This document shows, piece after piece, positions 159 to 61,323 of a stretch of 64,000 bases of DNA. A program made the position numbers and the translations under genes. Numbering within the stretch: position 1 is the first letter of the stretch; each line of letters starts with the position of its first letter. The notes under the pieces are model-generated. The model had not been told where the DNA came from. It saw only the letters and a list, made by a program, of their open reading frames with translations, and ran no database searches. Origin of the DNA: Hoylesella nanceiensis DSM 19126 = JCM 15639 (lineage in GTDB: Bacteria > Bacteroidota > Bacteroidia > Bacteroidales > Bacteroidaceae); contig NZ_KB904328.1 in the NCBI RefSeq assembly GCF_000379965.1, positions 585,529-649,528 of the forward strand, written 5' to 3'.

Positions 159-246
159 GTCTAAAACCATTACAATTACAGACTAAAATCATTGCTTTTG
201 CGCTCCAATTTCATTGCTTTTATTGTCCAAAAGCAGTGAGTTTACA
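159..246 (+). repeat. 22-bp tandem array A (4 units)
   Basis: Four consecutive 22-bp units start at 159, 181, 203 and 225. Each follows the frame of four variable bases, AAAA or a variant, one base, CAWTGC or a variant, TTTT or a variant, then three variable bases. The array lies in the noncoding stretch 1-374 downstream of feoB. An open frame crossing it (95-325) looks incidental. Apart from this array and the feoB terminator I see nothing else in 1-429. Confidence 0.85.
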
Positions 247-369
247 AAGTGGAATGAATGGCGATGAAAAAGAACTCAATAGGAGAGAAAAGCGAGTGGG
301 GTATATTGAAGCCGTGAAAGGGTAGGTTTGTGGAGTGATTAACTCTGTAACGTGTGAGATGATAGCATG

Positions 370-405
370 AAAAAGCTCTCTAACGATCTGAAATCATTAG
401 AGAGC
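370..405 (-). terminator. Intrinsic terminator of feoB
   Basis: GCTCTCTAA (375-383) pairs perfectly with TTAGAGAGC (397-405). Read on the minus strand, the hairpin is followed by a run of five T. It lies about 25 bp beyond the feoB stop codon. Confidence 0.85.
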
Positions 406-429
406 AATTTATTTATATGATGTAACTTT

Positions 430-2580
430 CTATGCCACCAGACGCCAAATAAAGGCGATAAGCATCGTAACGATGATACCTAAGGCGAGCGGAAGCAAGG
501 TTGCAAGAGCCGTCCACTTCACACTTCTCGTCTCTTTATATATCGTATAGATCGTTGTACTACATGGGTGATGCAACAAACAGAACACCATCACACACAC
601 AGCAGTGAGCAAGTTCCAACCACCTTTCAATAAAATCATCTTCGTTTGCTCGTCTGTTCCTTCCATTAACACGCCAGATGAGGCGAAATCTGCAGGGCCT
701 AACACCAGCATAGTGAGCATTAATATCGTTGGGATCACAATCTCATTGGCAGGAATAGCTAAGATATAAGCTAAAAGAATAACGCCATTTAAGCCCATTA
801 GCCAGCCAGGAGTGTCTAAGAATGATATCAAGTGCTGAGCAATACTAACGTCGCCCACTGTGATATTACAGGATAACCAAATCAAAGCACCTGCTGGAGC
901 AGCGAAAACAACAGCACGCCAAAGTACGATAAGCGTTCGGTCTATGACCGAGGTGTAGAGCGTTTGCCAGAATTGAGGTGGACGATAAGGAGGTAATTCG
1001 AGGTGGAAGGTAGACACTTCGCCACGCAATACCGTTCTCGAAAGCACCCACGAGCTACCAAACATAAAGCCTACTCCCGCCAAAACAACCGCCATCACCG
1101 CCAAAAGAGCCACCACATTACTATATTGCGAAGGCACTGCTGCACCTATAAAGAGCGTTGCAAGGAGGATTTGAGTGGGCCAACGACCATTGCAAAGCGA
1201 AAAGTTATTGGTGATAATCGCAATGAGTCGCTCTCTACTACTGTCGATAATACGAGTAGAAACCACGCCTGCTGCATTACAGCCAAAACCCATACTCATT
1301 GTAAGAGCTTGCTTTCCGTGTGCTCCCGAACGACGAAATAGCTCGTCAAGGTTAAATGCAACACGTGGAAGATAGCCGAAATCCTCGAGTAAAGTGAATA
1401 GAGGAAAGAAGATAGCCATAGGTGGAAGCATCACAGACACAACCCAAGCCGTAGCCAAATACACGCCATCTACCATTAAACCCGTGAACCATTCAGGCGA
1501 ATGCATCGACACAAACAACTCTCTAAGATGTGGATGTGCAAAGCCAATCAAAATCTCATTGAGCCAAGTAGAAGGGTAGTTAGAACCTATTATCGTGAGC
1601 CAAAACACGCAACAGAGCAGTGCCACCATGATAGGAAAGCCCCAAATGCGGTGCGTTAGAATGCGGTCGAGCTTGATATCGAATGGAAGTCTACCCCTTT
1701 CGTTGCCTTGTTGCACCACTTCTCGGCATATTTCTTCGGCTTGTGCATAGATATCTTCCATCCATTGGTCGTGAAAGTTATTGCCAATTTGCAAGTGAAT
1801 ACGTTCTGCAAGGGCGTTTAATTCAGCGTTACTAAAGCGTTCTTGCACGCTCACATCGCCTTCAATCAGTCTAAAAGCAATCCATTCGGCATTGTGAATG
1901 TCAGGAAAATGCTCCTTCACCTTATCCGATAGTTCTTGAATAAGAGTGCTTGTTTGAGCAGGAAGGTTGATGCTTCGATGAGGCTTGCACACATATTCGC
2001 CCTTCACCACAGCCCTTGTCATTGCCAAAAGCTGGTCTATTCCTTGTCCAGAGCGTGCCGATGCACCCACAACAGGAATGCCTAAGCGACGTGAAAGCGC
2101 ATTGAGATTCACCTCAATCTTATTTCTTTTCGCTTCGTCTAACAAGTTAACGCACAGAACTGCTTTGTTGGTGATTTGCAACACCTGCAAAATCATGTTC
2201 ATATTGCGCTCTAATCGGGTAGCATCTGCCACCATTACCGTTACATCAGGATTGCCAAAGAGAATAAAGTCACGTGCAATTTCTTCGTCTTCACTCGTAG
2301 ATGATAATGAATAAGTACCAGGAAGGTCCACAATTCGATATGCATCATCTTGATAAACAAAGAACCCTTCGGCCTTACCAACAGTCTTTCCGGGCCAGTT
2401 TCCCGTGTGTTGTTTCAAGCCAGTAAGACTGTTAAACACCGTACTTTTACCCGTATTGGGGTTGCCCGCCAGTGCAATTACATATTTAGATTGTATTCCT
2501 TGCGTTCCTTTTCGCTGCAAAGTGTGCAGGTTTGCTTGTGCGCAATTGGCGCAAGGACTATTGTTTGTTATTTTGTTCAT
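430..2580 (-). CDS. feoB: Ferrous iron transport protein B (FeoB)
   Basis: This 716-residue protein is a Fe(II) transporter of the inner membrane with an N-terminal GTPase domain. The G-protein motifs are visible: P-loop GNPNTGKST at residues 39-47, DLPG at 85-88, NLLD at 145-148 and a G5-like GASARSG near 172. The C-terminal half contains many hydrophobic segments and the Gate-type sequence region typical of FeoB. A short Cys-containing N-terminal extension (CANC, residues 10-13) precedes the G domain; this could bind metal, which is inference. No separate feoA or feoC lies next to it. FeoA-like domains are instead fused to the regulator encoded 85 bp upstream, so the two genes probably form one iron-responsive operon. 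The length is normal for the family and the identification is firm. Confidence 0.97.
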
Positions 2581-2665
2581 AGATGAAATTCTTTAGAGTT
2601 GTAATTCTTTCGTAAGGTGAGAACTGAATTGGTGCGATAGAAAAACAGAGCTGTTGAGGCCTGTT

Positions 2666-3670
2666 CTATTGCACATCGTTGGCCACCTTTCTTACGTTTT
2701 GAATCAAAATGTATTGTGCTTGGTCGTGTCGAAGGGCAATTGCAGTGCCTCTAACCACGTAAGCTACAGGATTACCCATCGGACTTTTCATGTCAATGGC
2801 AATTCTACTGCCTTTCACAAAGCCCAAATCCATGAGCCTACGGCGCAGTGCTCCACGACAAGAAGGCGACAAACCCACAATGGTTGCCTGCTCGTTTGCC
2901 TGAATAGTGGTTAGTCGTTGCGCCCTTGTCTCAGGCATCCTCTCGGCTTCTTCCTTCGTTACTTCCACCCTGTTCATCGCCTCTAGTGCAACAAGAGGTA
3001 GGCACATCTGCTCGCCTTCGTATTTAAACGAGAACGAGGTGCTATTGATTTCGGTGATATAAATAATCGAGTCCTTGGTTAGTCCCAAATCTGTAATCTG
3101 CTTAAACAATTTCTTGTCGTCGTCTTCCACATGCGTAATGCGCCACCAAGTATGCTCTTTCAAAGGCAATTCGCAAGTGTCGTGAGGCATCATTGCAAGC
3201 GATTGGGTAGGAATGGGGTCGCCATGAGGGTCGAAAAGAGGGTTGCCTAAAAGAGAGGCAATGCGACTTTGCTCCTCATCTGATATAAGGTGCTCCATAC
3301 GATGCGCCCTTTCGTGCCATTCTGTGGGTGCATATCCAGAGTGTTCAGCAAGATATTGCTCGTAAATGCGGTGCGCTCTAATCAATTTAAGGGCGTTTCG
3401 CTTACCCTTTTCAGTAAGCTCTAACTGCGCACCTGCAGTGATTTCTTTTGTTAAAACAACAGCTCCTATCACCTTTTCCAGTTCTTCTTGAGTAACGTTC
3501 AAAATGCTTTTCTGCTTCAAAGCATCTTCAAACGAAAGCGAACCGCCAAGGTTATAAAGTTGTTTTATAAAGTCTTCTTGTAGTTCCTTCTGTCTTTTCT
3601 GAGCGTGTTCGTTCAACGAATAGTTCTTGAAAGGCAGTAAAGTAACAAGTTTTTCTATATATTTATTCAT
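2666..3670 (-). CDS. DtxR-family metalloregulator fused to FeoA-like domains
   Basis: The 334-residue protein combines a DtxR/MntR-type repressor with two FeoA-like SH3 domains. Residues about 25-95 form the winged helix. Residues about 98-155 form the metal-binding and dimerisation region, with the family-typical HRIYEQYL, WHERAHRMEH and NPLFDPHGDPIP. A first FeoA/SH3-like segment spans about 160-238 and a second, better conserved one about 253-328 (RRRLMDLGF, then a hydrophobic strand region). DtxR proteins often carry one SH3 domain; a second FeoA-type one next to feoB suggests that metal sensing and FeoB interaction are coupled in one polypeptide. That coupling is inference. The gene is the first of a probable operon with feoB, and a minus-strand promoter motif TACCTTTG sits 24 bp upstream. 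Confidence 0.88.
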   Translation of the reverse strand: MNKYIEKLVTLLPFKNYSLNEHAQKRQKELQEDFIKQLYNLGGSLSFEDALKQKSILNVTQEELEKVIGAVVLTKEITAGAQLELTEKGKRNALKLIRAHRIYEQYLAEHSGYAPTEWHERAHRMEHLISDEEQSRIASLLGNPLFDPHGDPIPTQSLAMMPHDTCELPLKEHTWWRITHVEDDDKKLFKQITDLGLTKDSIIYITEINSTSFSFKYEGEQMCLPLVALEAMNRVEVTKEEAERMPETRAQRLTTIQANEQATIVGLSPSCRGALRRRLMDLGFVKGSRIAIDMKSPMGNPVAYVVRGTAIALRHDQAQYILIQNVRKVANDVQ

Positions 3671-3693
3671 CTGTTTCGTTTACTGTTATGATG

Positions 3694-3701
3694 CAAAGGT
3701 A
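3694..3701 (-). promoter_or_regulatory. Bacteroidetes -7 promoter motif for the dtxR-feoB operon
   Basis: On the minus strand this octamer reads TACCTTTG, an exact match to TAnnTTTG, 24 bp before the start codon of the regulator gene. I see no convincing -33 TTTG at the expected spacing. Confidence 0.6.
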
Positions 3702-3755
3702 CAAATAATATATATAGTGCTTTTATCTTACGAACTCTTTTTTATTATAATGTAT

Positions 3756-3843
3756 AAATAAAAGCAGTGCTTTTGCCGTGTAATGTCAGTGCTTTTGAGG
3801 CGTAAAAGCATTGCAATTGCTTGGTAATTAGATAGATATTGCA
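3756..3843 (+). repeat. 22-bp tandem array B (4 units)
   Basis: Units start at 3756, 3778, 3800 and 3822. The first three are good matches to the AAAA-N-CAWTGC-TTTT frame and the fourth is degenerate. The array lies between the divergent dtxR-feoA fusion gene and nrfH. Confidence 0.85.
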
Positions 3844-3971
3844 AATAAAGTGGTAGGCGATTGGCTCTCAATGACTTTGAAAGAGCAATCCAGAAAAAAG
3901 GGAAATACACCTTATCCTCATAAATGAGGAAAAAAATCTTCAAATTTTATACAACATTAAAATTAAAATAT

Positions 3972-3979
3972 TATATTTG
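3972..3979 (+). promoter_or_regulatory. -7 promoter motif upstream of nrfH
   Basis: TATATTTG matches TAnnTTTG and lies 24 bp before the nrfH start codon. The upstream region is very AT-rich and no clear -33 element is present. Confidence 0.55.
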
Positions 3980-4003
3980 CCCCATAAACATATTAATTAG
4001 CCT

Positions 4004-4606
4004 ATGGATATACGTAAGCTGATAAAAGTGAATACTTTGTTCACCTATCGTCAAAAGGTTGTTGGATTGATAATGTGTGGTACTATTGTAGGTTTGGTTC
4101 TGGTGTTTGCCTATTACTTGCGTTTGCATACTTATTTAATAGGAGATGATCCAGGAGCTTGCGTCAATTGTCACATCATGACACCTTATTATTCAACATG
4201 GGCACACTCTTCTCACGGAAGAAATGCAACGTGTAACGATTGCCATGTGCCACATCAAAACATCGCAATGAAATACTTTTTCAAAGGAAAAGACGGAATG
4301 AAACACGTCGCTTACTTTGTTACTAATTCTGAACGTCAAGCCATTAGAGCCGAAGAAGCATCTTCGGAAGTGATAATGGACAATTGTATTAGATGTCACT
4401 CAGATTTAAATCAAGCTGCAGTTAAAACGGGACGAATAGATTATATGGCTGCTAAAAGAGGCGAGGGAATGGCTTGTTGGGATTGTCATCGTGATGTTCC
4501 ACATGGCGGAATGAACTCTCTTACTAAGACACCGAATGCAGAATCGCAGGTACCTTTGCCTCCAAATCCTGTTCCCGAGTGGTTACAAAAAGCTTTAAAA
4601 CGATAA
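4004..4606 (+). CDS. nrfH: Cytochrome c nitrite reductase small subunit NrfH
   Basis: This is a tetrahaem quinol dehydrogenase of the NapC/NirT family that passes electrons from menaquinol to NrfA at the periplasmic face. Four CxxCH haem sites are visible at residues 53-57, 77-81, 128-132 and 158-162. They follow a single N-terminal membrane anchor at about residues 20-41. The length (200 residues) fits NrfH rather than the longer NapC. It is followed 117 bp later by nrfA, so the two form the standard nrfHA unit for dissimilatory nitrite reduction to ammonium. It begins with ATG at the first possible position after the TATATTTG promoter. Confidence 0.95.
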   Translation: MDIRKLIKVNTLFTYRQKVVGLIMCGTIVGLVLVFAYYLRLHTYLIGDDPGACVNCHIMTPYYSTWAHSSHGRNATCNDCHVPHQNIAMKYFFKGKDGMKHVAYFVTNSERQAIRAEEASSEVIMDNCIRCHSDLNQAAVKTGRIDYMAAKRGEGMACWDCHRDVPHGGMNSLTKTPNAESQVPLPPNPVPEWLQKALKR

Positions 4607-4723
4607 ACTTAATTCCTAATTAATAACTCAATAGAAAAGAATAGAATTTCAGCTTCTTTTGAATTAAAAAGAAAATAAAGCGAACAATCATTATAATAAC
4701 TTGAAATCTAAAACTAAAAGAAT

Positions 4724-6220
4724 ATGGCAAAGCAATTGAAGAAATGGAAAGGATGGATGCTTTTTGGTGGTTCCATGCTAGTTGTATTTGTGTTAGGACT
4801 TATCTGTTTCTCTCTATTAGAGCGCAGAGCAGAGGTTGCAAGCATTTTTAATAATCGCCGAGTAGCGATGACTGACTCTATTGTTTCACAGAATGAGAAG
4901 TTCAAAGAGGACTTTCCTAGAGAGTATGAAACATGGGCAATGACCGAAGATACAACGTTTCAAAGTAAGTATAACGGCTCACAAGAGCGAGATATTCTCA
5001 AAGCTTATCCCGATATTGTAATTATTTGGGCTGGCTATGCCTTCTCAAAACAATACAATACTCCACGTGGTCACCGACATGCTATTGAAGATATGCGTAA
5101 GATTTTGCGTACAGGTAACCCCGGAGTAGATAATGATACCGACATACAACCAGGTACTTGTTGGACTTGTAAGGGCCCAGATGTGCCACGTTTGATGCGT
5201 GAAAAGGGTGTAGCAGCATTCTATGGGGCTAAATGGAGCGAGTGGGGAGATGAGAATATGAACACAGTTGGATGCTCAGATTGCCACGATGCACGCACAA
5301 TGGAATTGAAACCAGCTCGTCCAGCCTTATATGAAGCATGGCAAAGATCAGGTAAAGACGTTAAAAAAGCAAGTCATCAAGAAATGAGATCACTTGTTTG
5401 TGCGCAGTGTCATACCGAATATTACTTCGAAAAAGAGAACCATCAGTACCTTAAGTTCCCACAAGATAAGGGCTTAACATGCGAAGATGCTGAGGCTTAT
5501 TACGATAGTATTGGATTCTATGATTATATTCATCCATTGTCAAAGGCTAAGATCTTAAAGGCTCAACACCCTGGATATGAAATGTTCAAACAAGGTATTC
5601 ACGGACAAAGAGGTCTGAGTTGTGCAGACTGCCACATGCCTTATATGCAACAAGGTGGTATTAAATTCACCGATCACCACGTGCAAAGTCCTCTTGCAAA
5701 GATTGATAGAACATGCCAAACATGCCACAGACAAGATGCAGAAGTGCTTCGTCAGAACGTTTATGATCGTCAAAAGAAGGTGTATGACTTCGCTGTTAAG
5801 GTGAATAAAGAACTTGCAACCACTCACTTAGAAGCAGAATTTGCTTGGAAGAAGGGTGCAACTGAAAATGAAATGGCTACTGCTCTTAACGATATTCGCA
5901 AGAGTCAATGGCGTTGGGACTATTCTTTAGCAAGTCATGGTGCTGCATTCCACGCTCCACAAGAGGTGATGCGACTCCTTGCAGAATCAATGTCGTATGC
6001 TAAGAGCGCTCGTATCGAGATCGCAAGAGTACTTGCTAAGCATGGATTCACAGGTCAAGTGCCTCTCCCAGACATCTCAACTAAGGCGAAAGCACAAGCT
6101 TATATCGGTTTAGATATGAAGAGCTTGAACCAAAAGAAGACTAAGTTCCTTAACACCATCGTTCCAAAGTGGATTGAGAGAGCTAAGCAAAAGAAAAGAT
6201 TTATCACTCAACCTCTTTAA
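4724..6220 (+). CDS. nrfA: Ammonia-forming cytochrome c nitrite reductase NrfA
   Basis: This periplasmic pentahaem enzyme reduces nitrite to ammonium with six electrons. The active-site haem motif CxxCK (CWTCK, residues 146-150) is present, which is diagnostic of NrfA. Four CxxCH sites follow at 184-188, 226-230, 300-304 and 331-335. An N-terminal hydrophobic segment at about residues 11-31 acts as a signal or anchor. The length of 498 residues is normal. It is preceded by nrfH and followed, after a 466-bp gap, by genes for a cytochrome c synthase pair that would attach its haems. Confidence 0.97.
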   Translation: MAKQLKKWKGWMLFGGSMLVVFVLGLICFSLLERRAEVASIFNNRRVAMTDSIVSQNEKFKEDFPREYETWAMTEDTTFQSKYNGSQERDILKAYPDIVIIWAGYAFSKQYNTPRGHRHAIEDMRKILRTGNPGVDNDTDIQPGTCWTCKGPDVPRLMREKGVAAFYGAKWSEWGDENMNTVGCSDCHDARTMELKPARPALYEAWQRSGKDVKKASHQEMRSLVCAQCHTEYYFEKENHQYLKFPQDKGLTCEDAEAYYDSIGFYDYIHPLSKAKILKAQHPGYEMFKQGIHGQRGLSCADCHMPYMQQGGIKFTDHHVQSPLAKIDRTCQTCHRQDAEVLRQNVYDRQKKVYDFAVKVNKELATTHLEAEFAWKKGATENEMATALNDIRKSQWRWDYSLASHGAAFHAPQEVMRLLAESMSYAKSARIEIARVLAKHGFTGQVPLPDISTKAKAQAYIGLDMKSLNQKKTKFLNTIVPKWIERAKQKKRFITQPL

Positions 6221-6353
6221 TAACAGCGCATCTGTTGCGACCTAAGAGCTCATCCATTGCCCTTCAACGGCACACGTTCTAATCGCAATAGAAACGAAAG
6301 AGGAAAAGAAATAATAAGATTACAGAACTCAAACAAATAGATAGTTAACAATG

Positions 6354-6436: not shown

Positions 6437-6502
6437 TTCATATTGTGTTCTCAAGAGCTAATAAAAAGAAAAGACGAGCCGCACAAAGATCATCTTTGTG
6501 AA

Positions 6503-6590
6503 AAACAAAAGAGGTGCTATTGCTTTGCAAAACCATTGCTTTTAGTCTGCAAAGTCAATGCAATTAAAGCATAAAAGCAATGCCATTTCA
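6503..6590 (+). repeat. 22-bp tandem array C (4 units)
   Basis: Units start at 6503, 6525, 6547 and 6569. Units 2-4 match the frame well and unit 1 is degenerate. The array lies between nrfA and the resB-like gene, within a 466-bp gap that otherwise holds the inverted repeat at 6354-6436. Confidence 0.83.
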
Positions 6591-8757: not shown

Positions 8758-8789
8758 TAGTGGTGATAACGAAGAACCCCCATTTAAAC

Positions 8790-10070
8790 ATGAAGATAAA
8801 CGAAATATCGAGCGAAACAGCGGCTTTTATAGAGCAAAACCTAAAGAGTGATGTGCAAACATTGGCTTTGAAAGGTGCTAAAACCAAAGGTGTTGACATG
8901 ACTTTTGCCCTTAGTCAGATCAAAGGACACCAAACATCGTGCGCCAAACTGCCTCTTTGGGCAAGTACAGAAGGTATCGTTTTCCCCGTAACACTATCGC
9001 TCGAGCAATGCTCTTCGCAACAAACAGCAGAGTATAAAGCGCAACTTCTCAATCGTTTATCAAAGGGGTTAGATGTAGAAAAAATGCCCATTTCATCGCA
9101 AAAAGAGGGCGAAAAAGCAACAAAAATACTCAGTTTGACCGATTTAACGGGCGGTTTCGGGGTCGATTTCACGCTCATGGCAAAACAAGTAAACAATTCT
9201 TACTATGTAGAACAGCAACAAGTATTGTGTGATATAGCAGAAAACAACTTGCCACTGCTTGGAGTTCGCAACTTTAAAGTGATGTGTTGCGATGGCGAAA
9301 AGTATCTAAAAGAAATGAACGGCACATCTTTTATCTTCTTAGACCCTGCTCGTCGTGACGCAAGTGGGGCAAAAACGGTCGAAATAGAGCAGTGCACGCC
9401 CAATGTTTTGGCATTGAAAGAAACGCTATTGCAAAAGTGTTGTGTGGCTATTGTGAAGCTTTCGCCTATGTTAGACTGGCATAAAGCACTGAAAAGTCTG
9501 AACGAAGGTGCCCCAATAGTGAGCGAAATACACATTGTTTCGGTGCAAAACGAGTGCAAAGAGCTGCTCTTTGTGTTGCAAAAAAACGCTCCACAGCAAC
9601 CCCAAATATATTGTGTTAACGACCAACAGGTGATGAGTTACAGTCCAACGGATAACGAAGTGGCTCTGCAAACCATTTCTTCTGAAATAGAAGAGCATAG
9701 CGAAATGCTCCAAAACCAATATCTCTACGAGCCTAACGCTTCGCAAATGAAGGCGGGTTGTTTTGCTTTTTTGTCACAAAAATATGGTGTTAAGGCACTT
9801 TCTGCTAATAGTCACCTCTTTGTTTCGCTCCATTTCATCGAGAATTGGCATGGTAGAAAGTTCAAGATACAAGCTGTTTCAAGTCTAAATAAAAAGGAAC
9901 TGAAAACCAAATTCGCTGCCTTTACACACGCCAACGTTGCTGTTCGCAACTTTCCGTTGAGTGCTAACGAGCTAAGAAAACGTTTAAAGCTGAAAGAAGG
10001 CGGTTCGTTTCTGTTTGGAACAACGCTCGGTTGCAATACGCATATCTTGTTGATGTGTAGCAAAGAATAA
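8790..10070 (+). CDS. Class I SAM-dependent methyltransferase, THUMP-like
   Basis: About 426 residues, taking ATG 8790 as start because a promoter motif overlaps the earlier in-frame GTG. The central part has a Rossmann SAM-binding segment (LTDLTGGFGVDF) followed by a catalytic-type FLDPARRD motif, as in RNA and RsmD-like methyltransferases. The C-terminal section resembles the THUMP-like domain of conserved Bacteroidetes proteins such as the P. gingivalis PG1098 type. The substrate is unknown; RNA is the most likely guess. It appears monocistronic, with a terminator upstream and a repeat array downstream. Confidence 0.82.
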   Translation: MKINEISSETAAFIEQNLKSDVQTLALKGAKTKGVDMTFALSQIKGHQTSCAKLPLWASTEGIVFPVTLSLEQCSSQQTAEYKAQLLNRLSKGLDVEKMPISSQKEGEKATKILSLTDLTGGFGVDFTLMAKQVNNSYYVEQQQVLCDIAENNLPLLGVRNFKVMCCDGEKYLKEMNGTSFIFLDPARRDASGAKTVEIEQCTPNVLALKETLLQKCCVAIVKLSPMLDWHKALKSLNEGAPIVSEIHIVSVQNECKELLFVLQKNAPQQPQIYCVNDQQVMSYSPTDNEVALQTISSEIEEHSEMLQNQYLYEPNASQMKAGCFAFLSQKYGVKALSANSHLFVSLHFIENWHGRKFKIQAVSSLNKKELKTKFAAFTHANVAVRNFPLSANELRKRLKLKEGGSFLFGTTLGCNTHILLMCSKE

Positions 10071-10165: not shown

Positions 10166-10253
10166 TTGCAAACTCAATGCAATTACCAGCCAAAAGCATC
10201 GACTTTGCATTCTAAAAGCAATGCTATTGCCAACCAATAACAATGCCTTTGTT
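10166..10253 (+). repeat. 22-bp tandem array D (4 units)
   Basis: Units start at 10166, 10188, 10210 and 10232 and fit the common frame; the first carries the recurrent AAACTCAATGC. The array lies between the methyltransferase gene and the IS remnants. Confidence 0.85.
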
Positions 10254-22280: not shown

Positions 22281-23735
22281 ATGATAATAAGTAAGCTTAT
22301 TTCAGGCATTAAACCAATCAATATCATTGGTGATGTCAACAAAGAGATAGTCGGTGTAAACATCGATTCACGCAAAATAGAAGCTAATCACTTATTTATT
22401 GCCGTGAAAGGAACACAAGTTGATGGACATCGTTACATCGAAACAGCCATTGAAAAAGGCGCTGTCGCAGTGTTATGTGAGGACCTTCCTGAAGAAAAAG
22501 CAGCCCATGTAACCTACATTCAAGTACAAGATACCACCCAAGCAGCAGGCGTTGTTGCCACAGTTTTCTATGGAGAACCCTCTAAAAAGGTGCAGTTAGT
22601 AGGCGTAACAGGCACCAATGGCAAAACAACAATCGCCACATTATTATATAACTTGTTTAGAAAATTAGGCTACAAGTGCGGTCTATTGTCAACCGTTTGC
22701 AATTATATTGAAGACGAAGCAGTGCCTGCCGACCACACAACTCCAGACCCTATCGCACTCAATTACTTATTATCTCGAATGGTAGAAGCAGGCTGTGAGT
22801 ATGTATTTATGGAGTGTTCGTCTCACGCAATCGCCCAAAAACGCATCGCAGGACTACACTTTGCAGGCGGAATCTTCACCAATCTCACCCGTGATCACTT
22901 AGATTATCATAAGACCTTCGAGAACTATCGAGATGCAAAGAAAGCCTTCTTCGATAGCTTACCCAAAACTTCTTTCGCCATAACTAATGCAGATGACAAG
23001 AATGGAATGTACATGGTGCAGAACACAAAGGCGACAGTTAAGACCTATAGTACACGCTCTTTGGCCGATTTTAAGGCACGAATCATTGAGTGTCACTTTG
23101 AAGGTATGTACCTAGAAATCGACGGAAGAGAAGTAGGCGTGCGCTTTATCGGTAAGTTTAACGTAAGTAATCTGCTCGCAGTGTATGGTGCTTCGGTGAT
23201 GCTTAAGCAACAACCAGAAGATGTTCTCCTTGCACTTAGCACCCTACATAGCGTTAGTGGTCGTTTAGAACCTATCTATTCGCCCGAAGGATTCACCTGT
23301 ATTGTAGATTATGCACATACTCCCGATGCCCTCGAAAACGTGCTTTTGGCTATTCACGACGTGCTAAATGGCAAAGGAAAGGTGATAACTGTGTGCGGAG
23401 CAGGCGGAAATCGAGACAAAGGAAAGCGTCCTTTAATGGCTCAAGAAGCTATTAAACAAAGCGATAAGGTGATTTTAACCAGCGACAACCCACGTTTTGA
23501 AGACCCACAAGACATTCTAAACGATATGAAAGAAGGCTTGAACAACGCTCAGTTGAAGAAGACTTTAACCATAGTAGACCGCAAAGAGGCTATCAGAACC
23601 GCTTGCTCTTTGGCGCAAAAGGGCGATGTTGTGTTGGTAGCAGGAAAGGGACACGAAGACTATCAAGAGATAAATGGAGTGAAACATCACTTTAACGATA
23701 AAGAAGTTCTATACGAAATATTTCAGAACGACTAA
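22281..23735 (+). CDS. murE: UDP-MurNAc-tripeptide ligase MurE
   Basis: MurE adds the third amino acid to UDP-MurNAc-L-Ala-D-Glu in the cytoplasm. The ATP-binding motif GTNGKTT is at residues 111-117. The C-terminal DNPR motif (in SDNPRFEDP) marks the group that uses meso-diaminopimelate, so the wall is expected to be of the DAP type. The 103-bp gap after ftsI contains a possible hairpin (AACGCC with GGCGTT) but no T-run, so transcription probably continues. Confidence 0.97.
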
Positions 23736-23832: not shown

Positions 23833-23920
23833 TTGCAAACTCATTGCTATTGGCGTGTAATTGCATAGCTATTGAGGTGTAAAAGCAATGCAATTGGGGT
23901 GCAAACTCAATGCAATTAGA
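23833..23920 (+). repeat. 22-bp tandem array E (4 units)
   Basis: Units start at 23833, 23855, 23877 and 23899; all four are strong matches, two with AAACTCA. The array lies inside the cell wall cluster, between murE and mraY, so it does not simply mark operon ends. Confidence 0.9.
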
Positions 23921-28181: not shown

Positions 28182-28269
28182 GGGGAATAGCATTGCTTTT
28201 AGACTGCAAACTCAATCCTTTTGCATCATAATCTCACTGCTTTTGATAGGTAAAAGCGTTGCTTTTGAA
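28182..28269 (+). repeat. 22-bp tandem array F (4 units)
   Basis: Units start at 28182, 28204, 28226 and 28248, all good matches. The array sits between the ftsW terminator and the TonB receptor promoter, in a roughly 450-bp noncoding gap. The last unit is nearly the same as the last unit of array G. Confidence 0.9.
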
Positions 28270-31643: not shown

Positions 31644-33157
31644 AAAGAAAAACAATAGCAATACTTTTGGTTCTTTGGTTGGGTGCTTTCAATGCGTTAT
31701 ATGCCTCTTCGTTAGACTCAATAGCTATATTAGAGCACAACGCTTTGTGGACTCGTGTTCTGCAAAAGCATGCCGACAATCCAGCAGCGGCTCCCACTTT
31801 ATATTCCACTTCGTTATCAAGTGGAAGCGTTTCGTTCGATTATCAGCATTCAAACAAGCCTTTCTTATATCAAAAAGGCACAGGACATAAGGTGGGAAAG
31901 ATAGACATTCAGTCGTATCTTTTGTTACCTTCGAACCTTTGTTTGTGGGGAAGTGCGGGCTATAAAAGGGGTAAAATAGAGCGCATAAGCTTTAATTCTG
32001 CTGCCGACTTCGATATACTTTATCCTTATGTTTTGGGCGATACATTGCAAACAAGTCCTACTATTGAGCAGTATTCGTTTAGTGGTGGGGCAGCAACCAC
32101 AATGAAACAGTGGACCATTGGGGCTGTAATTGACTTTAGAGCGATGCAACAATTTAGTAGAAAAGACCCACGAACACGCAGTATTGCCACCGACTTAGTG
32201 TTGAAAGTAGGGGCAAAATATGCCTTTACAACATACGACTTGGGTTTGGATATGGGTGGAATTTTCTACAAACAAACCAACGATGTGGCCTTTTTTCGTG
32301 AGGAAGGAACCAGCAAAGAATATCTTTATACAGGCTTAGGAACCAACTATGCACGCTTTTCGGGCAACAACTTATCTGCCTATTACAAAGCTACAGGATT
32401 GCTGTTCGATATTCATTTGAATCCAAAAACAAAGCAAGGAGCCTTTATTTCGGCAGGTTATCGATTCGTTCCATATAACCAAATCCTTCCCAAACTCAAC
32501 GCTTTACCCCTCACAACCTTATATAATACAACGTGGAAAGCCCACTTTGGGTGGAAAGCAGAACAGCAATTGGGTTGGAGTGTATATGCTTCTGTGGTGC
32601 ATAACCGCCGTTTAGGCAACGAAAATGTCGTTGGAAACGCTGCAGGAGGAGAGTATCGAAAGCTCATAAGTATGTCGATGTATAAGAATAGGCAATGGGA
32701 TTATGCGGTAGGAGCACTACTTAAAGCAGGCGATAAACACGTGTTTACAGCCCATGTGCAAGGCGGTTACAAAACAAATAAAATGCAATATGTAGAGCCT
32801 TTGCGTGTTATGGAGGCGAACTTTATATATGTTAATACTCAAATGCAATATCAACAGGCAGTGAATAGTCGATCAACACTCACCTTAGATGTTAGCTCTA
32901 CGGTGATGAATAACGTGAAAAAGCAGTTGATTATGCCCTTTGCTGTGATGGATAAGAATATCACTGAGATGATAAACTTAAGCTATGAGCATCTTAAAGC
33001 CAATGCTTTTCAGTTAGAAGGAAGCGTGCTTTTCACTTATAAACCGGCATGTTGGAAAAGCAATAAAACCCTATTTGCTCGCTTAAATGGTGGTTTTGTA
33101 GGATTAAAAGGATACCAACAAACCAATATGAGCGTTGCTTTGGGAGTCTATTTCTAA
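31640..33157 (+). CDS. Outer-membrane beta-barrel protein, DUF6850-like
   Basis: About 505 residues from ATG 31640 (overlapping the preceding stop codon). It has a signal peptide (cleavage near LYAS) and then alternating aromatic/polar strands throughout, ending in NMSVALGVYF. The terminal aromatic residue is typical of outer-membrane barrels. The sequence resembles the Bacteroidetes DUF6850 family, which I recall being found beside TonB receptors and DUF4876 proteins; that name is from memory. It may act as a porin or accessory channel for the same substrate as the receptor. Confidence 0.75.
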   Translation: MKRKTIAILLVLWLGAFNALYASSLDSIAILEHNALWTRVLQKHADNPAAAPTLYSTSLSSGSVSFDYQHSNKPFLYQKGTGHKVGKIDIQSYLLLPSNLCLWGSAGYKRGKIERISFNSAADFDILYPYVLGDTLQTSPTIEQYSFSGGAATTMKQWTIGAVIDFRAMQQFSRKDPRTRSIATDLVLKVGAKYAFTTYDLGLDMGGIFYKQTNDVAFFREEGTSKEYLYTGLGTNYARFSGNNLSAYYKATGLLFDIHLNPKTKQGAFISAGYRFVPYNQILPKLNALPLTTLYNTTWKAHFGWKAEQQLGWSVYASVVHNRRLGNENVVGNAAGGEYRKLISMSMYKNRQWDYAVGALLKAGDKHVFTAHVQGGYKTNKMQYVEPLRVMEANFIYVNTQMQYQQAVNSRSTLTLDVSSTVMNNVKKQLIMPFAVMDKNITEMINLSYEHLKANAFQLEGSVLFTYKPACWKSNKTLFARLNGGFVGLKGYQQTNMSVALGVYF

Positions 33158-37494: not shown

Positions 37495-37582
37495 TTCTAA
37501 ACCCATTGCTTTTAGGGCGCAATCTCATTGCTTTTACACCTCAATCTCACTGCTTTTGAAAGGTAAAAGCGTTGCTTTTGGG
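37495..37582 (+). repeat. 22-bp tandem array G (4 units)
   Basis: Units start at 37495, 37517, 37539 and 37561, all excellent matches with AATCTCATTGC or AATCTCACTGC cores. The array lies between the convergent M16 gene and recO. Confidence 0.92.
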
Positions 37583-38735: not shown

Positions 38736-38801
38736 CTGCAATTCAAATTTAATTGAAATGCAAAAACAATGCAATTTCAGTCTAAATGAATAGAAATTGA
38801 C
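38736..38801 (+). repeat. 22-bp tandem array J (3 units, divergent)
   Basis: Units start at 38736, 38758 and 38780. The middle one (ATGC, AAAA, A, CAATGC, AATT) is a clear match and the others are weaker. The array lies between recO and tRNA-Glu. Confidence 0.6.
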
Positions 38802-39337: not shown

Positions 39338-39340
39338 ACA

Positions 39341-39428
39341 TTTCAAACTGAAGTAAGTTGTATTTCAAACTGAAGTGACTTATATTCCAATCTGAAGAGA
39401 GTTGCATTTCAAGGAATTACCACTTTAA
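39341..39428 (+). repeat. Variant 22-bp tandem array K (4 units)
   Basis: Units start at 39341, 39363, 39385 and 39407. The first three share TTTCAAACTGAAG or TTCCAATCTGAAG; the fourth is degraded. The period, copy number and AAACT position match the other arrays, but the CAWTGC core is replaced by GAAGTx. The array lies between the rpsT terminator and ung. Confidence 0.75.
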
Positions 39429-40789: not shown

Positions 40790-40820
40790 TAAACAATGGT
40801 CTACTAGGGACTTTTTATTT
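40783..40820 (+). terminator. Intrinsic terminator after the DUF3109 gene
   Basis: TCCCTAGTA (40783-40791) pairs perfectly with TACTAGGGA (40802-40810) and is followed by CTTTTTATTTT. The stem includes the stop codon. Confidence 0.87.
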
Positions 40821-40834: not shown

Positions 40835-40900
40835 CTCCAATAGCATTGCTTTTGGCATATAAACTCAATGCTTTGGCAGTGCAATGTCAATGCTTTTGAA
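40835..40900 (+). repeat. 22-bp tandem array H (3 clear units)
   Basis: Units start at 40835, 40857 and 40879, all good matches. A fourth on either side is too diverged to call. The array lies between convergent genes (DUF3109 and NUDIX). Confidence 0.85.
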
Positions 40901-53829: not shown

Positions 53830-53841
53830 ACACAACAATAT

Positions 53842-54597: not shown

Positions 54598-54602
54598 TTG
54601 AT

Positions 54603-55988: not shown

Positions 55989-56003
55989 GTAGATATAACC
56001 CAT

Positions 56004-56070
56004 AAAGAGTTTGTTCAAATGGCAATAGCCTTGTGCTCAAAAAGCCATTAACAAACTCTTTCTCTCTTTC
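56004..56070 (+). terminator. Hairpin terminator between sufD and sufS
   Basis: AAAGAGTTTGTT (56004-56015) pairs perfectly with AACAAACTCTTT (56050-56061). An inner AATGGC with GCCATT extends the stem. CTCTCTTTCT follows, a modest U-run. It may limit transcription into sufS. Confidence 0.7.
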
Positions 56071-56126
56071 TATTTGCCCATTCAGGTGCAAAATAGATTT
56101 TATTCACCTTTTATTTATAGTTAGGT

Positions 56127-57341: not shown

Positions 57342-57403
57342 AATGCGCCTAAAGTGCGTTTTAAAGCAAGTTTAGTAGCATTGGCATAAACTAATGGTAA
57401 TAG

Positions 57404-58048
57404 ATGAAAAAAGGCGATTCTAAGGAAAAGAAACCCATCCATTTGCTTCAATCACATTATTATGATGGATTGATTGAGGCAGGTTGCGACGAGGCAGGAC
57501 GTGGTTGTTTGGCTGGAAGTGTGTATGCTGCGGCGGTCATTCTACCGCAAAACTATTCGCATCCTTATCTAAACGACTCGAAACAGCTCACCGAAAAGCG
57601 CAGAATGATATTGCGAAAGGACATCGAAAAAGATGCCATTGCATGGGCAGTAGGTGTGGTTTCGCCCGAAGAAATCGACGAAATCAATATCCTTAAAGCG
57701 AGCTTTTTGGCCATGCACAGAGCCATAGATCAACTCAAAGTGCGCCCCGAAGCCCTCATTATCGATGGCAACCGCTTCACTCCTTATCAGAACTTGCCCT
57801 ACACGCCTATTGTAAAAGGCGATGCAAAGTATTTATCTATTGCCGCAGCAAGTATTCTTGCGAAGACTTATCGAGATGAGTATATGGAAGAACTCCACAG
57901 TCAATATCCGCAATACGAATGGAGTAAGAACAAAGGTTATCCCACCGTTGCGCACCGAGAGGCGATAAAAAAATATGGAACAACGCCATTTCATCGAATG
58001 TCGTTCAATCTTTTAGGCGAAGAAAAACAGCTTTCTTTCGATTTCTAA
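57404..58048 (+). CDS. rnhB: Ribonuclease HII
   Basis: RNase HII cuts RNA in RNA-DNA hybrids and removes misincorporated ribonucleotides. The active-site motif [12 protein letters not shown] (with the Asp-Glu pair) and LIIDGNRF and [15 protein letters not shown] are conserved. The C-terminus QLSFDF is typical of Bacteroidetes proteins. It has 214 residues and follows sufS by 62 bp. Confidence 0.96.
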
Positions 58049-58113
58049 GACCCCAAAAAGGCGGATAAACAACGCTAAAAGCGGTTCTTTTGATTAAAAA
58101 TTACGGGCAGATA

Positions 58114-58145
58114 TTTGGTTGTTTGTTTAAAATATACTACCTTTG
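58114..58145 (+). promoter_or_regulatory. Promoter of the CAT-anticodon tRNA
   Basis: TTTG (58114-58117), a 20-bp spacer and TACCTTTG (58138-58145) match the housekeeping promoter pattern, about 32 bp before the tRNA. Confidence 0.8.
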
Positions 58146-58177
58146 CACGTGTAATTCTGTGTAGAATTATATTATTA

Positions 58178-58251
58178 GGGCTTTTAGCTCAGTTGGTTAG
58201 AGCAACAGACTCATAATCTGGAGGTCCTTGGTTCAAGCCCAAGATGGCCCA
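58178..58251 (+). tRNA. tRNA with anticodon CAT (Met or Ile2)
   Basis: The cloverleaf folds with D stem GCTC/GAGC, anticodon loop CTCATAA (CAT at 58212-58214) and T stem CTTGG/CCAAG. Sequence alone does not separate elongator tRNA-Met from lysidine-modified tRNA-Ile2; the former seems more likely. The acceptor stem has a T-T mismatch (58183 with 58245) and the first anticodon-stem pair is A-G (58205 with 58221). CCA is not encoded. Confidence 0.88.
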
Positions 58252-58252
58252 C

Positions 58253-58294
58253 AAGCAGTTCGCAAAACTTATCTTGCGAACTGCTTTTTTTATG
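58253..58294 (+). terminator. Terminator of the CAT-anticodon tRNA
   Basis: AGCAGTTCGCAA (58254-58265) pairs perfectly with TTGCGAACTGCT (58274-58285) and is followed by seven T. A near-copy of this hairpin lies at 59578-59620. Confidence 0.9.
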
Positions 58295-58487
58295 TTTGTT
58301 TGATATGGATTTCTATAAAATGACGATGCAATAATGGTATTTATAACAGCTATCATCTTTTTATATACGGCATTCATAAAATGTTATTGTTCACCAATTT
58401 ATAAAGAATAACGCTCTTTTAATTTAAAAAATATCATCTTTTTATATCTTTTTGCAAGAAAAGAACATTTGATAATATGTTTTTATT
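58295..58487. other. AT-rich noncoding region before the LRR gene
   Basis: About 190 bp of AT-rich sequence with no gene. With the following promoter and hairpin region it makes up the 370-bp gap before the LRR protein. Confidence 0.5.
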
Positions 58488-58529
58488 TATCTTTGAAATA
58501 CTTTTATAACGTATCTGCTCGTTATAAAA
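58488..58529 (+). promoter_or_regulatory. Promoter motif and inverted repeat upstream of the LRR gene
   Basis: TATCTTTG (58488-58495) matches the -7 motif. A perfect 10-bp inverted repeat follows, TTTTATAACG (58502-58511) with CGTTATAAAA (58520-58529), around an 8-base loop. It would sit at the very 5' end of the transcript, so it could be an operator or an RNA hairpin controlling the gene. Confidence 0.5.
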
Positions 58530-58621
58530 ATCTCCTTTGTTAGGATCAAATTTATAAAGGTTTGAGAAATTAAAAGCAATCAATAAACAAAAAATATTAT
58601 TCATTTAATTAAAGAACTTAT

Positions 58622-59473
58622 ATGAAACAACTTTATCTTTTGCTGATAACCCTGCTCGTAAGTTTATCAGCTTATGCCGAAAAATCTGGAACTTGTGGTG
58701 ATAATCTACAATGGAAACTCACAGATGAAGGCGTGTTAACCATTACAGGAACAGGAGAAATGCAAGATTGGAATGATTATAGTAGCCCATGGTACGAAAA
58801 CGAAAGTGTTAAACAAGTTATCATAGGTGATGGTGTAACAACAATTGGGGATTGGGCTTTCTCTTATTGCCGTGCTCTTACTTCGATTACCATACCAAAT
58901 AGTGTAACAACAATTGGGGATAATGCTTTCGAGAGTTGCTCTTCTCTTACTTCGATTACCATACCCAATAGTGTAACAACAATTGGGGATTATGCTTTCT
59001 CTTATTGCCGTGCTCTTACTTCCGTAATCATTTCTAATAGTGTAACAACAATTGGGGAGAGGACTTTCGCTAATTGCTATTCTCTTACTTCTGTAACCAT
59101 TCCTAGTAGTGTAACAAGAATTGAGGATGGGGCTTTCTCTGATTGTGGGAATGTAAAACAGATTACAAGTGAGGCAGTAACTCCACCATATTGTTCTAGA
59201 TATGCTTTTGATGGGGTTAACAGAAACGAATGTAAACTTTTTGTACCAAAGAATAGTATAGATGCTTATAAAAGAGCATATGTTTGGTGGCATTTTTTCC
59301 TTATTGAGGGTACCACTACTGGCATTAAAAACAACATCTACAATAAAATAGATAATGTAGATGTTTACACAATAGATGGAATAAAACGTTTAAGCAAAGC
59401 CAATGTTAACGAAATAAATGCTTTGCCTAAGGGCGTTTATATAATCAATGGTAAAAAGATAGTTATCAAATAA
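58622..59473 (+). CDS. BspA-type leucine-rich repeat surface protein
   Basis: This 283-residue protein has a signal peptide ending near AYAE, then the GTCGDNLQWKL region that often opens BspA-like proteins. About five 23-residue LRR_5 repeats follow (core SLTSITIPNSVTTIGDNAF, residues about 65-180). A final domain ends in about 30 residues like a type IX sorting tag (VYTIDGIKRL, LPKGVYIINGKK, ending IVIK). The repeats are nearly identical at the DNA level (69-bp period, 58820-59130), so copy number can vary by recombination. BspA proteins mediate adhesion in related oral bacteria. It is flanked by duplicated terminator sequences. Confidence 0.88.
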   Translation: MKQLYLLLITLLVSLSAYAEKSGTCGDNLQWKLTDEGVLTITGTGEMQDWNDYSSPWYENESVKQVIIGDGVTTIGDWAFSYCRALTSITIPNSVTTIGDNAFESCSSLTSITIPNSVTTIGDYAFSYCRALTSVIISNSVTTIGERTFANCYSLTSVTIPSSVTRIEDGAFSDCGNVKQITSEAVTPPYCSRYAFDGVNRNECKLFVPKNSIDAYKRAYVWWHFFLIEGTTTGIKNNIYNKIDNVDVYTIDGIKRLSKANVNEINALPKGVYIINGKKIVIK

Positions 59474-59577
59474 TAAAATAAAAGACTAATTGCACTGGAT
59501 CTCATTGTATGTTCTTTTTGCATGAAAAAGCCTAATAATGAGGACAGAACATGTAAAAAGAAACATTGATACAAACA

Positions 59578-59620
59578 AAGCTGTTCGCAAAACATCTCTT
59601 GCGAACTGCTTTTTTTATGT
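59578..59620 (+). terminator. Near-copy of the tRNA terminator, after the LRR gene
   Basis: Aligned with 58253-58295, 40 of 43 bases agree by eye. One of the changes breaks a pair in the stem, so this copy appears derived. Seven T follow the hairpin. Confidence 0.8.
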
Positions 59621-59686
59621 GCGTTTGTTTCCTCTTGTCGAGCTTTTGCTCCGCTTTGTCAATAAAAAAAGAATATCAATAAAAAA

Positions 59687-59713
59687 GGAGATGCCTCGCA
59701 ATGAGGCACCTCC
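59687..59713 (-). terminator. Terminator of the DUF389 gene
   Basis: GGAG-A-TGCCTC pairs with GAGGCA-C-CTCC around a short loop. On the minus strand it is followed by TTTTTTATT. Confidence 0.8.
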
Positions 59714-59774
59714 TTTTGGTTTTGTTGTATGTCTTTCCCCTTTAAAAGCAGGGATTTTATTTCAAAAAATACTT

Positions 59775-61121
59775 TTACTTGCCTGTGGTAGGTTGCAAGA
59801 CAAGGCGCAAGCTATCGGCTTTTGAACGAGTCTTTAGCCAGCGTTGAAGCTGTTGCTGTTCTGCTGTTGATAGCGCATTTTTATATCCCACCAATGCCAA
59901 AACATAGTTTTTGGTAGCCAAAGTGTCGGTTCTTTCCTCAGATACTAACGACAAACTGATGGTATTTACTTGCGGACAAATAGCCTTAATCTCTTTAGAA
60001 AGCTCCTTACCTAATGTCTCATAGCTCCAATATTTTTTCAGTTGCTTTTCTAAGTTGCTCAGTTGTTCGCTTTGTGTAATAAGCTGTTCCTTGGTGTCGG
60101 CTAATGAGTTGCCCGACAAATCTTCTTTTCGTAGAGTATTATTACCTTGACTTCCTTGAATAATCACCAGTTTATAACCCTCAAGACTATATTCCTTTAG
60201 GTTTTCTTGAGCCTTTTTAATGGTATCTTCTCCAATGGGTTCGCCCACCGCTACAATACGAATAGTCTTGCTTTCGTCGTTTCTTTTGTTCGAAATAATA
60301 TATGTTCCTTTCAACGTTAGCTCATTCTTAACAAATTGTTGAGTGTTGTTGTCTTGAATACTTTCACGAATAATTTGAGTGGTCATATATGTTGCTGGAA
60401 TCATTGTGATAACAACAATGGCAAAGATATATTTTCTAACGCGTTGCAAAGCGGCTGCATCTGCAAAGGTTCTACGTTGAAAACGAAGCATTCTAACGCC
60501 TATAAAGGTAGAAAGCGCAATGAAGACGGTATTGATGAAGAAGAGATAAAACGCCCCAAAGAAGAACGAAATTTCTCCAACTGCAAGTCCATAACCAGCA
60601 GTACACAATGGTGGCATCAAGGCTGTAGCGATAGCAACGCCTGGAATTACATTACCTTTGCCTTTTGTGCATAAAGCAAGAATACCCGCAGCACCACCAA
60701 ATATGGCGATGAGCACGTCGTATAACGTGGGCGAGGTGCGTGCCAATAGCTCTGATTGAGCCTCGCTAATCGGACTGATAATAAAGTATATCATTGCAGT
60801 GATAACACTTATTACCGTGGCAACAAGATAATTTTTCACCGAGCGTTTTAGCAAATTGAAGTCGTCTATGCCCACTGCTAAACCCATTCCGCTGATTGGT
60901 CCCATCAAAGGAGAGATGAGCATGGCACCTATAATCACTGCTGTTGAATTGACATTTAAACCTAATGAAGCGATGAAAACAGCGAAAATAAGTACCCAAA
61001 GGTTCGCTCCGTGGAAGGTTACTCCACTGCTTATCTGTTTAATAATCTCTGTTTCGTTCTCTTTATCGGGTAATGCATTGAAGTATCCCCTAATGTTTTT
61101 CCAAAATGAGTCGTTATTCAT
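59775..61121 (-). CDS. DUF389 family membrane protein
   Basis: About 448 residues from the ATG at 61121; an upstream extension is ruled out by a promoter motif at 61141-61148. The N-terminal half is polytopic, with the DUF389 (TIGR00341-like) hallmarks: GLNVNSTAVIIGAMLISPLMGPI, then GVAIATALMPPLCTAGYGLA. The C-terminal half (about 250-448) is soluble and partly coiled (SLADTKEQLITQSEQLSNLEKQLKKY). The function of the family is unknown. It is transcribed alone. Confidence 0.85.
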   Translation of the reverse strand: MNNDSFWKNIRGYFNALPDKENETEIIKQISSGVTFHGANLWVLIFAVFIASLGLNVNSTAVIIGAMLISPLMGPISGMGLAVGIDDFNLLKRSVKNYLVATVISVITAMIYFIISPISEAQSELLARTSPTLYDVLIAIFGGAAGILALCTKGKGNVIPGVAIATALMPPLCTAGYGLAVGEISFFFGAFYLFFINTVFIALSTFIGVRMLRFQRRTFADAAALQRVRKYIFAIVVITMIPATYMTTQIIRESIQDNNTQQFVKNELTLKGTYIISNKRNDESKTIRIVAVGEPIGEDTIKKAQENLKEYSLEGYKLVIIQGSQGNNTLRKEDLSGNSLADTKEQLITQSEQLSNLEKQLKKYWSYETLGKELSKEIKAICPQVNTISLSLVSEERTDTLATKNYVLALVGYKNALSTAEQQQLQRWLKTRSKADSLRLVLQPTTGK

Positions 61122-61140
61122 TGTCGTCCTTTTTTGACGA

Positions 61141-61148
61141 CAAATATA
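61141..61148 (-). promoter_or_regulatory. -7 promoter motif of the DUF389 gene
   Basis: On the minus strand this reads TATATTTG, an exact TAnnTTTG match, 19 bp before the start codon. It supports the shorter protein. Confidence 0.65.
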
Positions 61149-61235
61149 CGAATAAAAATGCAAACTTGATCCTCTTGTATGTAGAAAAGCCGAGAGCTTG
61201 CAATGCCTTTGTGCTAAAGTCTTTGTAAGGTAACG

Positions 61236-61323
61236 TGGCAATAACATTGCTTTTAGGCCATAATAGCAATGGAATTAGAGCCTAAAAAGAATGACTTTGC
61301 AAGACAAAAGCATTGATATTGAA
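61236..61323 (+). repeat. 22-bp tandem array I (4 units)
   Basis: Units start at 61236, 61258, 61280 and 61302. Units 1, 2 and 4 match well; unit 3 is degenerate. The array lies between two minus-strand genes (DUF389 and nrdG), but is still in the + orientation. Confidence 0.83.

Follow-up and report, generated by a model that had tools for sequence, protein, structure and literature searches.

What are the short tandem arrays of 22-bp units that recur between the genes of Hoylesella nanceiensis DSM 19126, and what might they do there? The question is raised by a 64,000-nucleotide stretch of contig NZ_KB904328.1 (positions 585,529 to 649,528; hereafter the window), in which a preliminary description had noted nine such arrays and had attributed them either to a DNA-binding or nucleoid protein or to an 88-bp mobile element. 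The analysis reported here shows that the arrays are genuine, that they are under selection and that they are multi-site platforms at the level of DNA. Judging from their sequence, they are on balance probably tandem sites for a dimeric DNA-binding protein, the recognition word of which changes between species and which would punctuate the chromosome.

All nine arrays were found where the preliminary description had placed them, with a period of exactly 22 bp, and its count of four units was borne out in eight of them. These arrays, together with a divergent and a weak one also detected in the window, are as follows; "sister ortholog" denotes an orthologous array in the sister species introduced below.

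159..246, plus strand: four-unit array adjoining a feoB-like gene (430-2580, minus strand; gene by Pfam); its left flank is absent for anchoring in the sister species.
3756..3843, plus strand: four-unit array in the divergent gap between an iron-dependent repressor/FeoA gene (2666-3670, minus strand) and a NapC/NirT-type cytochrome gene (4004); sister ortholog.
6503..6590, plus strand: four-unit array in the gap between a cytochrome c552 gene (4724-6220) and a ResB-like gene (6687); sister ortholog.
10166..10253, minus strand: four-unit array 3' of an open reading frame (ORF; 8760-10070, plus strand); the minus strand scores better (phase 10167), and the sister ortholog is nearly unchanged.
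23833..23920, plus strand: four-unit array in the gap between a Mur ligase gene (22281-23735) and a glycosyltransferase-4 (MraY-type) gene (23979); sister ortholog.
28182..28269, plus strand: four-unit array 3' of an FtsW/RodA-family gene; units 3-4 resemble those of the array at 37495; sister ortholog.
37495..37582, plus strand: four-unit array in the convergent gap between an M16 peptidase gene and recO; sister ortholog.
40835..40900, plus strand: three clear units with a weak fourth at 40813, in the convergent gap between a DUF3109 gene and a NUDIX gene; sister ortholog.
61236..61323, minus strand: four-unit array at the start of a DUF389 gene (59775-61247, minus strand); exactly one unit is left in the sister species.
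39344..39409, plus strand: divergent three-unit array, in which the YAA-N11-TTR frame is kept around another inner word, CAAACTGAAGTAAGTTG; its sister copy (locus L273, near 10800) has strongly diverged.
38758..38801, plus strand: weak two-unit array with no score in the sister species.

To place these arrays in the context of the genome, we scanned the window and twelve other stretches of the same genome (304 kb), in which arrays were called with an iterated profile, as well as four further 20-kb stretches (80 kb). Sixty arrays were found in the 384 kb, 46 of them with exactly four 22-bp units. The first 304 kb held 53, of which 45 had four units, four had two, three had three and one had six; this density is biased upward because the early stretches were chosen partly at matches to a strict two-unit pattern. 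In the whole 2.65-Mb genome this pattern had 114 forward and 129 reverse matches (243 match rows), and none when read backwards; on contig C1 and the first 348 kb of contig C2, for which its places were listed, the matches merged into 58 distinct sites. A 22-column profile of the window units gave three-unit plus-strand scores of 52.3-67.6 bits at the nine sites, as compared to a top score of 3.4 bits in 40 first-order Markov sequences of window length, the profile having been trained on those same nine sites. An excess over shuffled sequence is present, so the reservation that the copies might be no more common than chance falls away.

The unit consensus, nnnYAAWnnCAnTGCnWTTRnn, is an odd-centred 17-bp palindrome plus a 5-bp spacer. 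The frame originally proposed (AAAA, one base, CAWTGC and TTTT between variable bases) is better written as YAAWnnCAnTGnnWTTR with five free bases. Within the unit the strong half-site is AAAAGCA and the other half is usually weaker: exactly one strong half was present in 133 of 180 units (90 expected) and in 100 of 148 units of the sister species (74 expected), and two strong halves in one unit were avoided (26/180 versus 47.5 expected). The polarity of the strong half was coherent within an array, at 1.89 versus 1.38 +/- 0.15, and at 1.78 versus 1.31 +/- 0.16 in the sister species. Unit-like sites of at least 14 bits were largely confined to arrays, with 324 inside them and 30 elsewhere in the 304 kb (both strands counted). 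The alignment of 44 arrays revealed no constant ends, the sequence outside the array carrying just weak 22-phased AA and TT. Units within an array were barely more similar to each other than to units of other arrays (z -0.2 to 2.2), and hence the arrays are not fresh tandem duplications. Some pairs nevertheless share approximately 40-60 bp by eye (units 3-4 of 28182 and 37495; L049:2014 and L049:6935), which indicates that copying between arrays does occur.

The comparison of orthologous gaps that the preliminary description had proposed was carried out in the sister species, genome G276, in which MraY is 98% and a second protein (PckA, named by eye) 99% identical and aligned DNA is 91-93% identical. 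The alignment covered the window and part of contig C2, where 18 of 42 arrays were anchored by their flanks, the other 24 being outside the sister stretches or not anchorable. A sister array was present at the same place for 15 of the 18. The three misses were the weak two-unit array at 38758 and the six-unit array L049:14354, neither of which had a scored counterpart, and the array at 61236, where the sister retains a single unit that joins the left part of unit 1 to the right part of unit 4. This site has lost three units, so arrays can shrink where they stand; among the anchored arrays no insertion was observed, 61236 being the only differing site read.

As observed in the 15 orthologous arrays (59 units), the core bases AA, CA, TG and TT were substituted at 21 of 472 positions (4.4%), the half-site bases at 50 of 354, the outer Y4/R20 positions at 25 of 117 and the centre at 15 of 59. 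The corresponding values were 81 of 295 (27%) for the spacer and 514 of 2393 (21%) for 80-bp flanks. The core thus changed far less than the flanks (P = 1e-22) and was six-fold more conserved than the spacer, which itself evolved slightly faster than the flanks (P = 0.02). The arrays are under base-specific selection. This constraint on symmetric positions of the unit, combined with a free spacer and the absence of RNA-type covariation, supports the earlier suggestion of a DNA-binding or nucleoid protein.

The position of the arrays relative to genes, called with a simple codon-score script, was examined in the 304 kb. The statement that they lie only between genes was nearly right: the 61236 array shares 12 bp with the called start of ORF 59775-61247, and for 3 of the 53 arrays the overlap with a called ORF exceeds 20 bp. 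Another 48 lie in gaps (25 co-directional, 14 convergent and 9 divergent) and two at stretch edges. Gaps with two arrays were rarer than expected by gap length (2 versus 10.2, P 0.0002), and convergent gaps were preferred, with 14 arrays versus 7.1 expected (P 0.006) and all seven convergent gaps of 500-800 bp occupied. Array direction was independent of the genes, 14 arrays having the same and 11 the opposite orientation in co-directional gaps (hand count). One array per occupied gap and a bias towards convergent gaps are what punctuation would look like, and on this ground punctuation is probably the role of the arrays.

We infer from these data protein binding, cooperativity and a punctuating role. 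An array would be a DNA-level landing platform, usually of four tandem sites, in which each 22-bp unit would take one dimer of a sequence-specific DNA-binding protein. This protein would read YAA...CA-N-TG...TTR within the unit, one half-site strongly and the other more weakly, and dimers two helical turns apart would be aligned on one face of the helix and may bind cooperatively. The likeliest job of such a platform would be that of an insulator, a transcription roadblock or a nucleoid anchor, rather than the control of a single promoter.

The strict pattern of H. nanceiensis was found in 16 of 298 other congeners; the full set was present in the sister species alone (87/70), with smaller sets in G198, G199, G215 and G070. 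The 22-bp period was also scored irrespective of the letters, by 66-bp comparisons at lag 22 with at least 36 matches, low-complexity runs and runs of N being removed. Lag-22 arrays were observed in 14 of 17 other congeners sampled, with up to 11 per genome, and control lags (not multiples of three) averaged 0-0.23. Twenty genomes from other families of the order, sampled in stretches of 0.4-20 kb, yielded one lag-22 match in 273 kb (mean for other lags 0.8), which is background level, and none was found in 50 kb of Escherichia coli.

At mraY loci a lag-22 array was present in 35 of 80 cases, as compared to 4 for lag 20 and 6 for lag 23, and 30 of 50 lag-22 matches at these loci were outside long open frames (11 of 200 random positions). 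Seven of the eleven cultured species listed were positive: Hoylesella marshii, Hallella seregens, Prevotella multiformis, Bacteroides bouchesdurhonensis, B. ndongoniae, B. heparinolyticus and Phocaeicola coprophilus; no array was found within 21 kb in Hallella colorans, Segatella albensis, Hoylesella oralis or B. cellulosilyticus. In the gap before mraY, which holds the array at 23833 in H. nanceiensis, lag-22 arrays of other words were present at loci L061, L073, L074 and L091; at L014 the array is on the other side of mraY, towards murD (by eye), and not upstream of mraY. The names of the flanking genes PckA, murD and mraY were partly assigned by eye.

De novo profiles were built for 19 genomes, including those of H. 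nanceiensis and its sister, with no seed from G069. The H. nanceiensis profile was half-shifted in phase (29 four-unit and 16 five-unit arrays), and the in-phase counts were used instead. The odd dyad was stronger than the even one in 15 of 18 de novo words, on dyad scores taken without a shuffled baseline, and the YAA...TTR frame over 17 bp was frequent among these words (by eye); those of G014 and G198 rest on one array each. Four units were commonest in most genomes (37 of 44 arrays in the sister species, 12 of 14 in G070, 9 of 11 in G004), and arrays of three or more units were absent from one shuffle per genome. That the word varies while the period, the odd symmetry and the mostly four units stay means, on the reading as protein sites, that the specificity of the protein and its sites must have shifted together. 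Phased A-tract curvature is unlikely as a general rule, the words of several relatives being without A-tracts. At one locus of G003 (L170, around 10084) another 22-bp repeat stands on either side of a four-unit array, its copies oppositely oriented, a layout that by eye forms a large inverted arrangement.

Rearrangements were also seen in the close pair G003 and G026. In one orthologous array the two differ by exactly one unit, and an apparent inversion has its ends inside arrays or within approximately 300 bp of them (contig C11 of G003 near 119047 and 176197; contig C6 of G026 near 32834). On this basis the arrays may act as recombination sites.

Several observations weigh against tandem sites for a punctuating protein as a general account. 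The distances of arrays to starts and stops are scattered, and with no fixed placement the assignment of a role is a guess. The four further stretches of the H. nanceiensis genome were sparser and shorter in arrays (7 in 80 kb, with 2, 2, 2, 3, 3, 3 and 4 units), so density and completeness are uneven along the genome; the copy number described as fixed at the outset is four as a mode (45 of 53 in the first 304 kb), and in these stretches it applies to one array of seven. The commonest unit number is five in G016 and three in G010, and G026, G030, G024 and G066 gave poor de novo words. Filtered lag-22 arrays were absent from the sampled parts of G069 (100 kb), G066 (100 kb) and G029 (20 kb), although G066 had one A/T-rich lag-22 array before filtering. 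Finally, the folding of array RNA surpassed that of mononucleotide shuffles (mean z -3.5, 90 folds), though this is expected of any palindromic array.

A tentative candidate for the binder, suggested by gene content and promoter sequences, is the HU-HIG protein (PF18291). H. nanceiensis and its sister have four PF18291 matches each, one of them strong, and the strong pair is 88% identical, which makes it faster-evolving than mraY. Matches of at least 67 bits were present in 13 of 15 genomes of the genus (H. nanceiensis included), and none above 45 bits in 9 genomes of other families; in G003, G026, G066 and G069 there were 22-30 matches per genome, ordinary HU included. With HIG genes called by hidden Markov model (33 of 34), a lag-22 array was present within 400 bp upstream of 10 of 33 HIG genes, versus 7 of 60 mraY and AsnC controls that include 10 AsnC loci of other families (one-sided P 0.028), or versus 6 of 50 genus-only controls (P 0.038); some of the HIG loci are mutual orthologues, so these counts are not independent. 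Downstream arrays were found at 2 of 33 HIG genes. Several of the upstream arrays are, by eye, unlike the main word of their genome, and the HU-HIG genes of G069 and G066 (L310 (1184) and L311 (2089)) have a common upstream 22-bp array, CAAGGAAGCAATTATGACGATG, which is nearly perfect in G069, these two genomes being otherwise array-poor in the stretches scanned. Immediately before the start of the H. nanceiensis HIG gene lie main-family units, two by score and four by eye, which are conserved in the sister species.

Against HU-HIG as the binder stand G066 and G069, each of which has more than 20 PF18291 matches but lacks a filtered lag-22 array in the 100 kb sampled, and G011, which has no strong match (the genome is 86% complete) yet 3 lag-22 matches in 29 kb. 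A further point against it is that main-family units were found upstream of 7 of 23 HIG genes checked with species profiles at permissive cut-offs. G009 has neither a strong match nor a lag-22 array in 29 kb. More doubtful still is the wider scheme in which Bacteroidaceae chromosomes would be punctuated by a nucleoprotein code that is private to them and switches fast, a lineage-specific HU/IHF-like protein (HU-HIG) reading blocks of about four 22-bp sites between transcription units, its specificity and its hundred or more sites shifting together, with paralogues carrying arrays of their own word at their own promoters.

An Lrp/AsnC octamer was an attractive binder, as its four dimers would fit four units. 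This candidate was rejected: the sole Lrp/AsnC match of H. nanceiensis shares an invariant recognition helix with species of other words. The helix, SGAAIHQR, is identical in 15 readable orthologues, including those of H. nanceiensis, G003, G004, G010, G016 and G017, the words of which differ; the G015 row, a misread frame, was left out, and three rows of a second paralogue read SRAAIHQR.

It is also conceivable, if rather unlikely, that the arrays are operators at which a conventional global transcription regulator controls promoters, without any part in chromosome architecture. Such a regulator would account for a selected binding-site pattern and for the conserved main-family units before the HU-HIG gene. 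The arrays are, however, most enriched in convergent gaps, in which the genes as called require no promoter, they keep no preferred distance from start codons and their orientation is unrelated to that of the genes. Another reading is that RNA hairpins formed by adjacent units act as bidirectional terminators or 3'-end stabilisers; the palindromic units, folding that is better than shuffled and the excess in convergent gaps speak for it. Compensatory pairing is nonetheless absent: complementarity between units did not exceed that of partners swapped among arrays (z -1.9 to -0.1), and the two halves of a unit paired less well than shuffled ones (z -2.7 to -5.2). The bases at positions 4 and 20 are combined without restriction (CA 45, TA 44, TG 38 and CG 26 in 180 units), A being found with C as often as with T. 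Nor do the arrays favour a strand relative to genes or keep a set distance from gene ends. RNA hairpins are very unlikely, and the arrays, to judge by the missing covariation, act as DNA and not as RNA.

Spread of a dispersed mobile repeat by a transposase, resembling a miniature inverted-repeat transposable element (MITE) or a repetitive extragenic palindromic (REP) sequence, would explain the many similar copies, the words that differ between species, the 40-60 bp common to some arrays and the G003/G026 inversion ends at or near arrays. This explanation, the second offered in the preliminary description, is largely refuted and very unlikely. Position is shared with the sister species in 15 of 18 anchored cases, and the differing site that was read shows unit loss and not insertion; the flanks have no constant ends, and no Y1 transposase (PF01797, Y1_Tnp) was found in the H. 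nanceiensis genome, which is 99.93% complete. Units hardly more alike within than between arrays, and the position-specific constraint inside each unit, also argue against it. The same two features bear on a neutral 22-bp minisatellite maintained through slippage or recombination, which could accommodate the one-unit difference between G003 and G026 and the three-unit loss at 61236. Such a repeat would not be expected to conserve its core six-fold more than its spacer or to have four units as the commonest number in most genomes profiled (exceptions G016 and G010). Because of the position-specific constraint the minisatellite is refuted unless mutation bias mimics constraint, and it is the least credible of the explanations considered.

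Known systems resemble the arrays in part. The BrickBuilt MITE of Porphyromonas gingivalis has a 23-nt unit, AGAYCATARTATCCTCTCRTRTG, in up to 22.8 copies, leader and tail segments and insertion-sequence-like terminal inverted repeats (PMC4596501). The same paper states that 22-nt tandem repeats were reported for P. gingivalis W83, without locations (PMC4596501). BrickBuilt and the arrays are both intergenic tandem repeats in Bacteroidales; the arrays differ from it in unit length, in their unrelated sequence, in lacking inverted repeats at constant ends (44 aligned arrays) and in showing no recent insertion at the anchored sites. BrickBuilt and MITEs were rejected, as unit sequence, ends and mobility all fail, and the proviso that the elements might match a described repeat family did not come true in this comparison. 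Among the papers listed from the open-licence literature, none was found to describe these arrays, judged by title and the start of the abstract.

The REP/BIME and REPIN elements of enterobacteria and pseudomonads are dispersed extragenic palindromes with a species-specific sequence in a constant architecture. The arrays are like them in being dispersed and extragenic and in keeping their architecture while the letters change; unlike them, the arrays are contiguous 22-bp tandems at positions shared with the sister species. REP/BIME elements with a RAYT were rejected, since neither a Y1 transposase nor compensatory hairpin changes were found. We place the arrays as a new variant among dispersed extragenic palindromic repeats or binding sites, since an architecture kept under changing letters is known from REP families too. 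What distinguishes the arrays from those families is the 22-bp period in tandem, the number of units, usually four, and selection that is specific to position.

Plasmid iterons, of which pPS10 has four 22-bp repeats and R6K seven, are similarly contiguous 22-bp direct repeats for one protein, two helical turns apart, if the arrays do bind one. In contrast to iterons, the arrays are palindromic and dispersed through the chromosome. Iterons with a Rep3 initiator were rejected, as the initiator (PF01051, Rep3_N) was not found in the H. nanceiensis genome; it was present in 6 of 36 genomes searched. The sites of Noc, SlmA and MatP, which serve in nucleoid occlusion and macrodomain organization, are dispersed palindromes for a nucleoid protein and are mostly single, whereas the units described here are in tandem, normally with one block per occupied gap, and with a word that changes between congeners. 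The wrapping sites of octameric Lrp/AsnC proteins, which bind as four dimers per octamer, are 15-17-bp odd palindromes in phased tandem, as are the units of the arrays; what separates the two is the recognition helix of the H. nanceiensis Lrp/AsnC protein, the same in congeners with other words. A CRISPR array was rejected, the units being contiguous with 5-bp gaps and with no unique spacers of about 30 bp.

If the proposed reading as tandem protein sites is correct, bacteria of a major gut and mouth group maintain genome-wide multi-site DNA elements that are easy to miss, because their shape and period are conserved and their letters are not, so that sequence searches are blind to them. This reading would imply a nucleoid or insulator protein that has still to be connected with its sites, and would offer a way to ask how DNA-binding specificity and many targets change together. 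Unit loss and rearrangement ends could in addition serve as markers for genome dynamics in Prevotella and Bacteroides.

Two minor observations were made along with these. The DnaA gene product was located on contig C7. The window also contains a BspA-type leucine-rich repeat ORF (58622-59473), with 69/138-bp tandem repeats at 58833-59145.

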